A stretch of 14,902 nt of DNA from positions 1 through 14,902 of the forward strand of contig JAUNAE010000052.1 of assembly GCA_030527765.1 (NCBI GenBank), written 5' to 3'. Positions 8,555 through 13,646 of this stretch are shown piece by piece (the stretch's first letter is position 1; the number at the start of each line of letters is the position of its first letter). The stretch is from Eubacteriales bacterium. Lineage in GTDB: Bacteria > Bacillota_A > Clostridia > Lachnospirales > Lachnospiraceae. Both the position numbers and the translations under genes were made by a program. The notes beneath the pieces are model-generated. The model did no database searches and was not told the DNA's origin. It was given only the letters and a program-made list of their open reading frames with translations.

Positions 8555-10315
8555 TCACCAATCCTCTTCTAAAAATTTGTCAATACTCTCCATCTTGCTC
8601 AATGTGTCAAAGTCATGATATAAAGCAAGCTTAAATGCACACAGCGTTGCATCAACAGGGTCAATTCGTTTTCGTGTTGCGTCTTTGTCTATTTTAATCA
8701 ATCCATTATTTGTTCGTATTACCGCATTCCCCATCGCATAAGTCAGCAAGGGATTCTCTAGGTAACTCACATTTTTACAGTAAACCTGTTCACGGAAGCC
8801 GGAAGTCGATTCATTCAGAGATCTGTGTGATTGATAAACCTCTTGCACATCGTATCCAAGATCTGATACATCCATCTCCATCTTTGATGCGTTTGCAGGA
8901 TCGAAGCACCAGTATTTAATTCTCAAGCCCTTTTGTTCGCAAAAATCTATGACATATTGCATTACTCTTGCCTGATCTACGATTGGTGTGTCTGTCACTG
9001 ACAAAAAGCCCATCATCTCCCATGCGTCATATGGGACATGGTCGGTTGTGATTCGCTCCATAAGCTTATCTCTGTTTGGGATAAAGCTATGCGAATATAG
9101 GATGTACTTTGTAATCTCATTCCCCTGGTGATCTCTTTTCCCGGATCTATAAGGGATGATAAACGCCACAGAGGTCAAGTCGATCTTTGCCGACATATCC
9201 AAACCAACATATACGTCCATTCCTTTGAGCGCTTCCTCCGGGATCGGAATAACATCCACCTCGCATGCTCTCCACTTGGACATATCCATGTAACCGTTTT
9301 CTTTTGCCTGCACCCAAACGTCAAACATCTTTGTGAGCACGGCGATCATCTTCTCCGGGGTGCTGAGCGCAATTTTGAGCTCTTCACGAATTTTATCAAG
9401 GCCTTCCTTGTACGTTGCTCTGATCGGATTAGACTTCAGCCAGATTTTTTCGTTTTTGAGGTTGGAAATATCAGCATAGTCTTCCGGATCCTGTTCGCAA
9501 ATATCGATCAGATAGCTGTCGTTAAAAACTTCTATATCTGGGTTTAAGATCTCTGAGCAATACTTATATTCCTGCGTGTAGCAAGGATATGACAGGTCTC
9601 TTCCTGCTGTTGTGATAATCATTAATAGCGGATTCTTCGTATTTCCGCCTAATCCCAGATCGTAAAACTCTGTTGTTGGGTGCTGATGATACTCATCGAT
9701 AATCAGCGTCGCAGGGTTTGTGCCATCGCCTTTCTGGCCATCCTCTTTCGATAATGGCTTCATAAACGATCCACTGGCATTGTGCGTGATGCTATCTCTT
9801 TTCACGTTAAACTTCGTTCGAAGCGGTGACAGCTTCAGCATCAGCTTCGCCTCATTGAATACAATCTTAGACTGGTCTCTCTTAACACCGGCCGTGTATA
9901 CCTCGTACAGCTCTTTGTATTTTGTAGCTTCCACCGACATATTGTAGAGAGCCACACCGGACATTTCCTGTGATTTTCCGTTCTTACGTGAGACCTCCGT
10001 GAACGATTTTGTAAATCTCCTGTATCCAGTGCCCTTCATCCTCCAACCGTAGAGCTGGCATAATCGGAACTGTTGCCACTCTGTCAGCTTGATCGGGGTT
10101 CCCGCAAGGACTCCCTTCGAGTGGTAGAGCAACGAGAACCAGTCCACAATGTTCTGAGCATCCCTCTCGCTCCATTCAAACGGGCAATCGGAACCTTTTG
10201 CCCTCTCAATGTCAGACAAGAGTCTCATACACGCCCATTTGTGCTTCTGACCGGAGGAAATCTCTCCACTGATGCAGTTTCTTGCGTATTGCGCAATTGT
10301 TTCAAGCCTCGTCAT
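8555..10315 (-). CDS. terL: Terminase large subunit
   Basis: The 586-aa protein is the packaging motor ATPase and genome-cutting nuclease. The N-terminal ATPase has a deviant Walker A, SRKNGKS (109-115), Walker B LIIDE (204-208) with the catalytic Glu208, and a coupling motif around IITTAG (233-238). The C-terminal RNase H-like nuclease shows VGLDMSAKIDLTS (370-382; Asp373), WCFDPANASKM (469-479; Asp472) and RIDPVDATLCAFKLA (550-564; Asp552/Asp555), the expected acidic triad. This arrangement fits the phage terminase-like family found with P27-type TerS and HK97-type heads, usually cos packagers. It starts in a 4-base ATGA overlap with TerS. Confidence 0.97.
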   Translation of the reverse strand: MTRLETIAQYARNCISGEISSGQKHKWACMRLLSDIERAKGSDCPFEWSERDAQNIVDWFSLLYHSKGVLAGTPIKLTEWQQFRLCQLYGWRMKGTGYRRFTKSFTEVSRKNGKSQEMSGVALYNMSVEATKYKELYEVYTAGVKRDQSKIVFNEAKLMLKLSPLRTKFNVKRDSITHNASGSFMKPLSKEDGQKGDGTNPATLIIDEYHQHPTTEFYDLGLGGNTKNPLLMIITTAGRDLSYPCYTQEYKYCSEILNPDIEVFNDSYLIDICEQDPEDYADISNLKNEKIWLKSNPIRATYKEGLDKIREELKIALSTPEKMIAVLTKMFDVWVQAKENGYMDMSKWRACEVDVIPIPEEALKGMDVYVGLDMSAKIDLTSVAFIIPYRSGKRDHQGNEITKYILYSHSFIPNRDKLMERITTDHVPYDAWEMMGFLSVTDTPIVDQARVMQYVIDFCEQKGLRIKYWCFDPANASKMEMDVSDLGYDVQEVYQSHRSLNESTSGFREQVYCKNVSYLENPLLTYAMGNAVIRTNNGLIKIDKDATRKRIDPVDATLCAFKLALYHDFDTLSKMESIDKFLEEDW

Positions 10316-10761
10316 ATCTCGCCAAACTTATCCTCAATCTGCGAATCTTCTTTCTTCACAAGCTCTGCTGCAAATTTCAGTCGATCGGATGCTGACATAT
10401 GGAGTCTGTTTTCCAGCTTTGTCAGCTCCGGAGATAATTTTCGGAGGGATTCTACAGCCTCCAGAAAATCTTCGCCTTCTTTTTCGTTTGCAGTCTTCTC
10501 AAGCTTCCTAACTGCCACCACCAGTGTGCAATATCGATCGAGTGCATTGTAATCAAGGGACGATAACATCCCGAAATCCTTTTGCGTATTTACGATCATT
10601 TTCCACTCTTTTTTCGCTTCTGCGCACAAATGCTTTGGCGGTTTCTGCAATCTTGAGCTGTCTTCAACTTTTACCGCCTCTTCTTCTCTTTTTCGATTCG
10701 CTACATATTGGTTCGTTAAATTTCCGCTCTGAAGGTCGAGCGGTTTTCTAGGCCTTCCCAT
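10312..10761 (-). CDS. terS: Terminase small subunit, P27 family
   Basis: The 149-aa protein recognises the packaging site and regulates TerL. ATG 10761 is preferred over the GTG at 10770 because GGAGGT lies 7 bases before it; from the GTG the same site would be too close. It starts MGRPRKPLDLQSGNLT, the characteristic P27-family opening. It has a helical centre (LCAEAKKEWKMIVNTQKDFG, then LSSLDYNALDRYCTLVVAVR) and a C-terminal Asp/Glu/Lys segment (SASDRLKFAAELVKKED) typical for the family. It ends in the ATGA overlap with TerL and follows a candidate cos region. Confidence 0.93.
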   Translation of the reverse strand: MGRPRKPLDLQSGNLTNQYVANRKREEEAVKVEDSSRLQKPPKHLCAEAKKEWKMIVNTQKDFGMLSSLDYNALDRYCTLVVAVRKLEKTANEKEGEDFLEAVESLRKLSPELTKLENRLHMSASDRLKFAAELVKKEDSQIEDKFGEI

Positions 10762-10770
10762 TGCTCCCAC

Positions 10771-10867
10771 CTCCGGTCTAATTCGAAAACCTCTTTTTTA
10801 GAAATTTACGTTTTCTAAAGAGGGACTGCGGTCTGGAAGGGTTTGTTTAAAACTTTTTCGACCGCCC
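10771..10867. other. Non-coding stretch with two inverted repeats; candidate cos / TerS-binding region
   Basis: Between the HNH gene and TerS there are 97 bases without a gene. They hold GCGGTC (10828-10833) and GACCGC (10860-10865), a perfect 6-bp dyad with a 26-base AT-rich centre. Nearby CCTCTTT (10790-10796) pairs with AAAGAGG (10817-10823), and AGAAA (10800-10804) pairs with TTTCT (10812-10816). HNH-TerS-TerL phages usually package from cos, and the site is often beside these genes. The cut position cannot be read from sequence alone. Confidence 0.45.
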
Positions 10868-11281
10868 CTACCCATTGATTCGTAAATATTTTTGCAACAT
10901 TTCATTTAATTGTCTGATAATTCGACGCTTAGCAATACTATCCTTGTATTGCTTCTCAATTTTTTCGTGCGTCGCGTGCCTGATCGGCAACAGGTTGTTG
11001 ATATCCGTTGCTTTCGATCGATCTTCACGCAATGGAATGATGTGATGCACAGTGTCTGCAGGTACTACTATTCCTTCTGTCATATATAGGTATACGTCTA
11101 TTCCGTCACACCTATTCATGGCTGCTGCTCTTGCTCGGATCCAGTCTGCAGAGTTGTAAAATGTTTTGCTCTCCTGGTTACGAGATTGGCGATCATATTC
11201 TTTATGCCTGTTACTTGTACATGCACAAGCCTTATTAACTTCTACTTGTTTCCCACAGCGCGGGCATTTCCTGTAGATCAT
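10868..11281 (-). CDS. HNH endonuclease (terminase-associated)
   Basis: The 137-aa protein is the small HNH nuclease encoded next to TerS in many HK97-like phages; in studied phages it works with terminase in cos cleavage. ATG 11281 is chosen because GGAGG lies just upstream; a longer frame to 11392 would have to translate a tRNA-like element. Residues 6-21 hold a zinc knuckle (CPRCG, then CAC: Cys6, Cys9, Cys19, Cys21). The HNH core is DTVHHIIPL (His79/His80), DINNLLPI (Asn95/Asn96) and RHATHEK (His102/His105). The usual second Cys pair ahead of the HNH is reduced to one Cys58. The C-terminus is a basic helix. Confidence 0.9.
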   Translation of the reverse strand: MIYRKCPRCGKQVEVNKACACTSNRHKEYDRQSRNQESKTFYNSADWIRARAAAMNRCDGIDVYLYMTEGIVVPADTVHHIIPLREDRSKATDINNLLPIRHATHEKIEKQYKDSIAKRRIIRQLNEMLQKYLRING

Positions 11282-11294
11282 CTCATCCTCCAAC

Positions 11295-11379
11295 GCCACC
11301 TGCCGGACTTGCACCGGCGCCTTATATCGCCCGTCACACAGCTGTCGCCGTGCCGCTCTACTCCCTGAGCTAAGGTGGC
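11295..11379 (-). ncRNA. tRNA-like element in the HNH leader (degenerate anticodon arm)
   Basis: The 85 bases fold as a cloverleaf. The acceptor stem is GCCACCT (11379-11373) with AGGTGGC (11301-11295), 7 bp perfect. TA then precedes a D arm, GCTC-AGGGAGTA-GAGC. The T arm is GCCGG-TGCAAGT-CCGGC, 5 bp perfect with a 7-base loop that has G where tRNAs have T55. The anticodon arm is abnormal: CACGG/CTGTG with one G-U and a 6-base loop CGACAG that lacks U33, so no usable anticodon is visible. An 18-base variable region follows. No CCA is encoded. The element begins where the preceding terminator tail ends and stops 4 bases before the HNH Shine-Dalgarno. It may be a decayed tRNA or a cis-acting tRNA mimic. 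Confidence 0.65.
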
Positions 11380-11412
11380 ATAAGAAAAGCACCCCACGCC
11401 TGTGAGATGCTT
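11380..11412 (-). terminator. Intrinsic terminator ending the accessory module
   Basis: AAGCATCTCAC (11412-11402) pairs with GTGGGGTGCTT (11397-11387), 11 bp including two G-U pairs, around a 4-base loop AGGC, followed by TTCTTAT. It lies 8 bases after the ribbon-helix-helix gene and directly abuts the tRNA-like element, so transcripts from upstream must read through it to reach the late genes. Confidence 0.75.
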
Positions 11413-13026: not shown

Positions 13027-13344
13027 TTATTCCTCCTCCGGCAATTCCGGTAAAGGCATCCAGTGTGTTACCTCCGCTGTTCCTCGGTGGACAAACCGCC
13101 CATCAAGCAGAAAACCCTTGTCAATGTTTTGGAATCCTTTCTTTGTCTTTGTCAAAACAAGCACTCCAGATTCCTCTTCTGGCAACCTCTCACTGCATGG
13201 GATCCATTTGCTACCGACATTTGCGTCGGTCACTGTCGGCTGTGCGTCAATTGCCTGAAATACGTGCTTGTTCTCCATAAGCTGATGGCTCGCGTACTTT
13301 TCTAGCCACTCTTTGAATGCATCTGCATCAATTAACCTAGACAT
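13027..13344 (-). CDS. DUF551 domain protein
   Basis: The 105-aa protein begins MSRLIDADAFKEWLEKYASH, the LIDADA opening common in Firmicutes phage proteins, and continues to the DUF551 domain. That domain runs from KWIPCSERLPEEESGVLVLT (about residues 46-65) to VTHWMPLPELPEEE at the end, the conserved W-x-P-C-S-E-R-L-P and H-W-M-P-L-P signature. The domain's function is unknown. AAAGGA lies before the ATG, inside the tail of the HNH fragment, which it overlaps by 13 bases. A second protein with the same kind of C-terminus lies at 14486-14827. Confidence 0.85.
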   Translation of the reverse strand: MSRLIDADAFKEWLEKYASHQLMENKHVFQAIDAQPTVTDANVGSKWIPCSERLPEEESGVLVLTKTKKGFQNIDKGFLLDGRFVHRGTAEVTHWMPLPELPEEE

Positions 13345-13646
13345 CTTGAATTTTCCTTTCTAATCAAGTTCTTGCCCCTATTCCCTCTTGCATATCTAGT
13401 GCTGATCGTACTTCTGTTAATTCCAGTTATGTCAGACCATTCAGAGATGGTATGGGTAACTCCCTCTATTTCAACGAAAAGCGTGTTCCTCCTGTTGTTG
13501 CATTGCTCCTTTGGTGTAGCCCAACGACAATTACTTGGCTCATAATCTCCGTTCACATCAATGCGATCTATTGATAGCCCATTTGTATAACCATTTTCAG
13601 TCGCCCATTTTTCAAAATTGCGAATATCGTGCCATTCTCTACACAC
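13332..13646 (-). pseudogene. HNH homing endonuclease, N-terminally truncated
   Basis: The 104 codons carry a clear HNH homing nuclease core: CREWHDIRNFEKWATENGY, then LSIDRIDVNGDYEPSNCRW (24-42) and EQCNNRRN (47-54). A C-terminal DNA-binding helix-turn-helix follows (THTISEWSDITGINRSTIS). Full-length relatives have about 50-70 residues before this, ending in Y-G-G-R-G-I-T-V-C. Here the bases upstream of the only possible start, a GTG with no Shine-Dalgarno, still read I-T-V in frame, then the frame runs into unrelated sequence and a TGA. So the 5' end is lost and the start is probably false. GC of about 41% by hand count. It sits between two small early genes without breaking the downstream one, and was probably acquired from elsewhere and decayed. 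Confidence 0.75.

Follow-up and report, generated by a model that had tools for sequence, protein, structure and literature searches.

Gene organisation around the leader

The phage represented in the window (the whole stretch of 14,902 nucleotides analysed here) is kin to prophages of gut bacteria. The order on its minus strand is a DUF1492 regulator (12662-12138), which we take to be ArpU-like, a small regulator-like gene (11620-11420; PHROG 3887 'transcriptional regulator', weakly Arc-like), a terminator-like hairpin, a tRNA-like cloverleaf, a Shine-Dalgarno sequence (SD) and the genes for an HNH endonuclease, the terminase small subunit (terS), the terminase large subunit (terL) and the portal. 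The HNH gene (10868..11281) is the first of the packaging cluster and matched PHROG 144 with an E value of 1.1e-20 when the protein was searched from residue 6 onward; terS (10312..10770; Pfam Terminase_4, PHROG 83) and terL (8555..10315; Pfam TerL, PHROG 9) are located downstream on the same strand. The HNH gene starts with the ATG at 11281-11279, and in eight aligned homologues, the starts of which were chosen by us, the start codon is at the same place or one codon earlier. A coding interpretation of the leader, with an open frame that begins at a GTG (11392) and continues through the cloverleaf into HNH, was rejected in view of these homologue starts near Met 11281.

The terminator-like hairpin (11411-11388) and its T-rich tail, which extends to 11380, were recognised by folding as a 10-bp stem followed by TTTCTTAT. 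The hairpin was absent from the output of a simple terminator scan; similar hairpins were found by eye ahead of HNH in many relatives. Two Rfam matches, ctRNA_p42d at this hairpin (E 0.011) and Plastid-ycf2 on the opposite strand (E 0.19), were below the gathering score and were regarded as chance. The tail abuts the 5' side of the cloverleaf (11294..11379, minus strand, including the discriminator base G at 11294), just as the first-pass annotation of this DNA had placed it. The other end had been put four bases before the ribosome site of HNH; this distance has to be corrected, as the SD, GGAGG, occupies 11291-11287, two bases past the discriminator.

Some further features of the region may be mentioned. 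A perfect sigma-70 consensus promoter (TTGACA, 17, TATAAT) is located at 11944-11916 of the minus strand, upstream of the small regulator-like gene. A second HNH gene (13332-13646, minus strand; best PHROG 3377) is found in the upstream region of small genes and, judged by best matches, belongs to a family different from that of the packaging HNH. The gap between HNH and terS (10771-10867), which we take to resemble a cos region, has short motifs (AAGTTTT, GACCGCA.GTCC) in common, by eye, with the same gap in L001, one of the related loci described below. For six named Paenibacillus phages, the distance from the HNH match to the right end of the record is at most about 170 bases, as is expected beside cos.

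Structure of the cloverleaf

The cloverleaf carries a 7-bp acceptor stem formed by 11379-11373 (GCCACCT) and 11301-11295 (AGGTGGC), U8 and A9, a 4-bp D stem (11370-11367/11358-11355) and a T arm (11302..11318) with a 5-bp stem (11318-11314/11306-11302); all pairs of the three stems are intact (7/7, 4/4 and 5/5), as had been read for the acceptor and T stems in the first-pass annotation. From the tRNA point of view, the anticodon arm consists of a 5-bp stem (11352-11348/11341-11337) and a 6-base loop without U33, CGACAG, at 11347-11342. The C and G of this loop can close as well, and together with one outer pair this gives a 7-bp hairpin with a GACA loop (11336..11353), which replaces the anticodon arm. 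The T loop, placed by sequence and Rfam alignment, is UGCAAGU, with G at position 55 (11312), and no CCA is encoded. While the short loop, the replaced T55 and the lack of CCA had all been noted earlier, the enlarged variable region (11319..11335), which at 17-18 nt is long for a D-arm type of this kind, had gone unmentioned.

The cloverleaf is real and goes beyond chance. In a 181-base search it matched the Rfam tRNA family RF00005 with 39.1 bits, against a cut-off of 29 (E 2.8e-7). Fold z-scores were -4.67 (131 nt) and -3.25 (90 nt), with 0 of 200 shuffles as good in each case, and our own cloverleaf score was 29.0, compared with 24.5 for the second-ranking site over both strands of the window and a maximum of 24.8 among 399 shuffled HNH leaders. 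No match to the cloverleaf was returned by the whole-window Rfam search up to E 10, and ARAGORN with default settings called no tRNA in the window.

Judging from its sequence, the element should not decode, because its loop, C-GACA-G, has six bases and no U33. The general features of a functional tRNA, namely a cloverleaf with a 7-bp acceptor, a D arm, an anticodon arm and a 5-bp T arm, are present. A 7-base anticodon loop with U33 was absent in every pairing register checked by eye, the T-loop motif U54 U55 C56 is broken by the G at 55, and the earlier opinion that a decoding tRNA is unlikely is supported by the loss of these required features. In hosts of related prophages a missing CCA is nothing unusual: in two such genomes CCA is encoded at the 3' end of at most 13 of 68 tRNA genes, and a separate, less reliable placing of the gene ends gave a count of one.

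One explanation would be that the element is a decayed phage tRNA, which has lost U33, U55 and the normal variable loop and does nothing now; we consider this plausible, at somewhat under an even chance. tRNA fragments arising through integration have been described (PMC9897764), but the element is neither a partial copy nor an array of broken stems: it is of full length and none of its 23 pairs is broken, which is not expected of a decaying gene that has already lost several decoding features. This last argument is biased, since the element was noticed for its perfect stems. The enlarged variable loop is not a product of simple point decay either.

Distribution among related HNH loci

HNH loci were taken from viral contigs and genomes, 216 of them with an HNH match (several contigs were fetched more than once). 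Loci with less than 120 nt upstream were dropped, and clustering at 95% protein identity produced 133 clusters, of which one member each was scored over up to 500 nt before HNH, together with three dinucleotide shuffles per cluster (399 in all). Ten of the 133 clusters scored above all 399 shuffles and nine of them looked like tRNA (the window, L001, L039, L063, L037, L148, L048, L052 and L054). The tenth, L049, reached 25.0 against the shuffle maximum of 24.8, did not look like tRNA by eye and was not counted. The other 123 clusters were within the shuffle range, according to a scorer that can miss remodelled forms because it demands a 2-base linker after the acceptor.

In four clusters (the window, L001, L039 and L063) the element fills the gap between the terminator tail and the SD; from the end of the cloverleaf nearest to HNH it is 12 to 23 nt to the start codon, so that the SD is spared. 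In L037 the element precedes the terminator, and in L148, L048, L052 and L054 it ends 172 to 365 nt upstream of HNH, the HNH start being less certain in the last three. Rfam found one tRNA each in the 43-kb record of L001 and the 37-kb record of L063, both inside the terminator-HNH gap, and no tRNA match in six other viral records. The gap of L063 holds a tRNA-Met that is close to a host tRNA-Met of the elongator type. A tRNA-Ile(UAU) is located directly after the late terminator in L001 (2092-2164), L039 (2791-2864), L410 and L411, that is, beside two HNH families: the last two loci, found by a DNA search of 58 genomes of one genus, share the terminator and the tRNA-Ile(UAU) with the first two, continue with a different HNH and lack a mimic beyond the tRNA-Ile.

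For the interpretation given in the first-pass annotation, the survey is partly supportive. Three further HNH phages of the survey have tRNAs or comparable cloverleaves in this gap, but most clusters stay within the range of shuffles and a mimic is missing from the two loci with the other HNH family. The decay interpretation is favoured both by the ordinary-looking tRNAs at the same spot (tRNA-Met in L063, tRNA-Ile(UAU) in the four other loci) and by the many clusters with nothing above shuffles.

A tree was built from 70 HNH proteins, one for each cluster with a strong, nearly full-length match, and so without L048, L052 and L054. On this tree, four changes are required for the label 'tRNA or tRNA-like upstream', which applies to 6 rows, and at least three of the changes are forced by well-supported branches; shuffled labels required 5.9 changes on average and as few as four in 4 of 500 cases. 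These changes suggest that the gap between terminator and HNH was filled or emptied several times. L001, L039 and L037 are grouped on the tree (92/82), and the window falls within a supported set of 28 rows, inside which the tree does not single out its neighbours. The mimics of the window and of L001/L039 may have a common or an independent origin.

Within the sequences searched, nothing closely related to the element of the window itself was present. Blastn of 240 bases around it against named phages gave 10 records with E values of 0.2-0.8 only, nine of which are mycobacteriophages with a tRNA-Thr under the match. The L039 leader had no near match among named phages. For the L001 leader there were 275 matching records, and the best 20 of the 275 match over the tRNA-Ile, 19 of them with a tRNA-Thr annotated. 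A phage tRNA-Thr was the best candidate parent of the window element among 470 distinct ARAGORN tRNAs of the collected loci, with 36.6 of 51 over the acceptor, D and T arms; this was found unconvincing and rejected.

Compensatory changes in the mimics of L001 and L039

Both L001 and L039 carry a second cloverleaf after the tRNA-Ile, with a 6-base loop C-GAAA-G and no U33. These mimics align end to end to the tRNA model, with scores of 26.4 and 21.3 bits that are below the cut-off. They differ from each other at 22 of 73 sites, and the GAAA-capped loop is unchanged. In the D, anticodon and T stems there are 10 substitutions over 30 sites and all 15 pairs are kept, four of them by changes on both sides (double compensation) and two with a change on one side; the same number of substitutions placed at random keeps 8.5 pairs on average (P 4e-5 for 15). 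The T stem by itself retains 5/5 pairs with one double compensation, and the acceptor stem retains 5/7 (P 0.18). For comparison, 12 of 23 fourfold sites of HNH differ between L001 and L039, so that the mimic is slower, the difference being not significant (P 0.08). A small hairpin after the tRNA-Ile in both loci also has a compensated pair (GGCUGAAAAGCC / GGCGGAAACGCC).

The compensated D, anticodon and T stems suggest that the L001/L039 mimic was selected for its shape. Thus, the evidence from one phage pair indicates that an anticodon-less tRNA fold can be maintained, which speaks against simple decay. That selection acts on shape had been proposed for the window element from its acceptor and T stems; the comparison agrees as to arms kept by compensation around an abnormal capped loop, extends the T arm to the D and anticodon arms, and does not bear out the emphasis on the acceptor. 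For the window's copy the same selection can be argued only by analogy and from its own unbroken stems. The HNH proteins of L001/L039 are about 50% identical to that of the window, which points to related phages that are not close, and in a MAFFT alignment of the three mimics the stems of the window element are out of register with the other two.

All three mimics precede an HNH of the same family, and the two tRNA-Ile loci with the other HNH family lack a mimic. The thrS operator of mRNA is known to bind ThrRS, and a comparable operator might be imagined here, in which a synthetase, or the HNH protein itself, binds the tRNA-like fold and so controls the late operon. With three cases only, and with many HNH genes of the same family lacking a mimic according to our scorer, we regard such an operator as very improbable.

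Capped anticodon arms in other phage tRNAs

Scans for the loop pattern yielded 114 and 46 stretches, which were passed through cloverleaf filters. Good capped examples, selected by their loop, remained in L240, L253, L281/L292/L305, L291/L296 and L288. The 463-kb viral contig L253 encodes two full CCA-bearing tRNAs (10222-10297 and 10618-10692, minus strand) with capped arms, CGAAAG and CCUCGG, adjoining three tRNAs with a CUA anticodon. In L305 (5172-5797), and also in L281 and L292, several odd units resembling tRNA are built on a tRNA-Pro-like backbone (C1-G72). The first unit shows a C-GAAA-G loop, and the second and third of L305 are preceded by an identical hairpin. GNRA capping as a general rule was rejected, because it was seen in 0 of 7 distinct 6-base-loop tRNAs that had not been picked by the pattern, one of which had CCUCGG. 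The occurrence of such odd tRNAs with 6-base loops in other phages, without the GNRA cap where the pattern did not select them, likewise counts in favour of decay.

Capped-anticodon cloverleaves near or among the tRNAs of large phages, some of which encode CCA (L253, both loops; L240), might also point to a stable RNA acting in trans, which would be processed like tRNA and then, without decoding, serve some host factor that binds tRNA as a decoy or ligand. Possible partners would be tRNA-targeting toxins, modification enzymes or synthetases; we know of no host factor for such a role. Apart from the second one in L253, these examples had been picked out by means of the loop pattern, and neither blastn nor the comparison with the 470 ARAGORN tRNAs gave a close sequence match to the window element. 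A trans-acting role is therefore quite unlikely in our view.

Possible role in the late-operon leader

We tentatively propose, with a confidence that stays a little below one half, that the window element descends from a phage tRNA, was remodelled into an anticodon-less cloverleaf and has been retained as a structured component of the late-operon leader. That the window's copy acts in cis, and in what manner, we infer. The compact fold would bring the terminator tail up to the HNH ribosome site. Host tRNA-processing enzymes might recognise the tRNA shape, RNase P at its 5' side and RNase Z at its 3' side, and trimming would leave a late mRNA that starts just before the HNH ribosome site. Translation control and antitermination, which the first-pass annotation had named beside an RNase P site, would be further candidate roles. 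RNase Z cleaves right after the discriminator of CCA-less tRNAs (PMC8549757), and RNase P has been reported to cleave between genes of polycistronic mRNAs (PMC2777011).

In the predicted fold of the window leader, the U-rich tail of the terminator pairs with the SD while the cloverleaf holds both together. With the cloverleaf in place, the SD was unpaired with a probability of 0.23; shuffling of the cloverleaf gave a mean of 0.50 (2 of 150 shuffles were as low as 0.23), and cleavage at its 5' end gave 0.54. The value of 0.23 is in itself unremarkable, as 61 tRNA-less leaders span the same range with a lower quartile of 0.24. In L063, the value rises from 0.02 to 0.84 on cutting, and shuffled leaders gain too (0.38 vs 0.82). 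Release of the SD by a 5' cut of the mimic was not predicted for L001 or L039. The folding models thus hint at a release of the SD by 5' cleavage in the window and, with less specificity, in L063.

Since the acceptor stem is not significantly kept between L001 and L039, RNase P or Z is disfavoured as the selected partner of that pair. Against the leader interpretation it also counts that compensation was measured on other phages, that the mimic is not significantly slower than the fourfold sites of HNH, and that nothing similar was found in most relatives or, beyond the tRNA-Ile, in L410/L411. We accordingly place the cis-acting leader element, which RNase P or Z may cut, on a level with simple tRNA decay, and it is the compensated pair L001/L039 that makes us lean to the leader element. 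A bolder version, that phages have repeatedly made tRNAs into hairpin-sealed, anticodon-less cloverleaves, some of them acting as cis switches in the packaging-operon leader, where the folded shape would hold the terminator tail clamped to the HNH ribosome site up to the moment of cleavage by tRNA-processing enzymes, seems to us rather unlikely.

Selection for the fold without decoding would mean that phage tRNA genes are more than decoding aids and that some are parts of regulatory RNAs. Abnormal phage tRNA calls, which are easily dismissed as pseudogenes or 'undetermined', would then merit closer attention, and host tRNA-processing enzymes would have a part in the late-gene control of these phages.

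Comparison with known systems

Phage tRNAs, tRNA pseudogenes and tRNA-like viral elements are already known. Among the literature matches listed, which lie mostly outside subscription journals, none describes a tRNA mimic that lacks an anticodon and is located in the leader of a phage packaging operon, and a paper on non-canonical tRNAs (PMC7609411) mentions neither 'phage' nor 'bacteriophage'; this is weak evidence for the novelty of such a mimic. The jumbo phage XacN1 has a large tRNA set that includes a tRNA pseudogene (PMC5852040), and a tRNA of undetermined anticodon was reported for Arthrobacter phage Windest (PMC12933202); as far as these reports describe them, they share with the window a tRNA cloverleaf in a phage genome. 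The window element differs in having no usable anticodon, a tetraloop-type hairpin cap and a place in a packaging-operon leader instead of a tRNA array.

In the thrU...tufB and metY-nusA operons of E. coli, processing of tRNAs that do decode sets the 5' end of the downstream mRNA. The window element is likewise located ahead of a protein gene, but it should not decode and its processing is a proposal. Viral tRNA-like structures (PMC5723415) are similar to the window element in that the tRNA shape serves beyond decoding, possibly inside an mRNA. The same applies to the thrS operator. The viral cases known to us are parts of the genomes of RNA viruses; the window element is a DNA-phage leader with a complete cloverleaf. 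No tmRNA was detected in the window by ARAGORN, and no tmRNA family was matched in Rfam. The tRNA-like domain of tmRNA lacks the usual anticodon arm too, whereas the window element unites its D and T arms within one contiguous unit of 86 nt.
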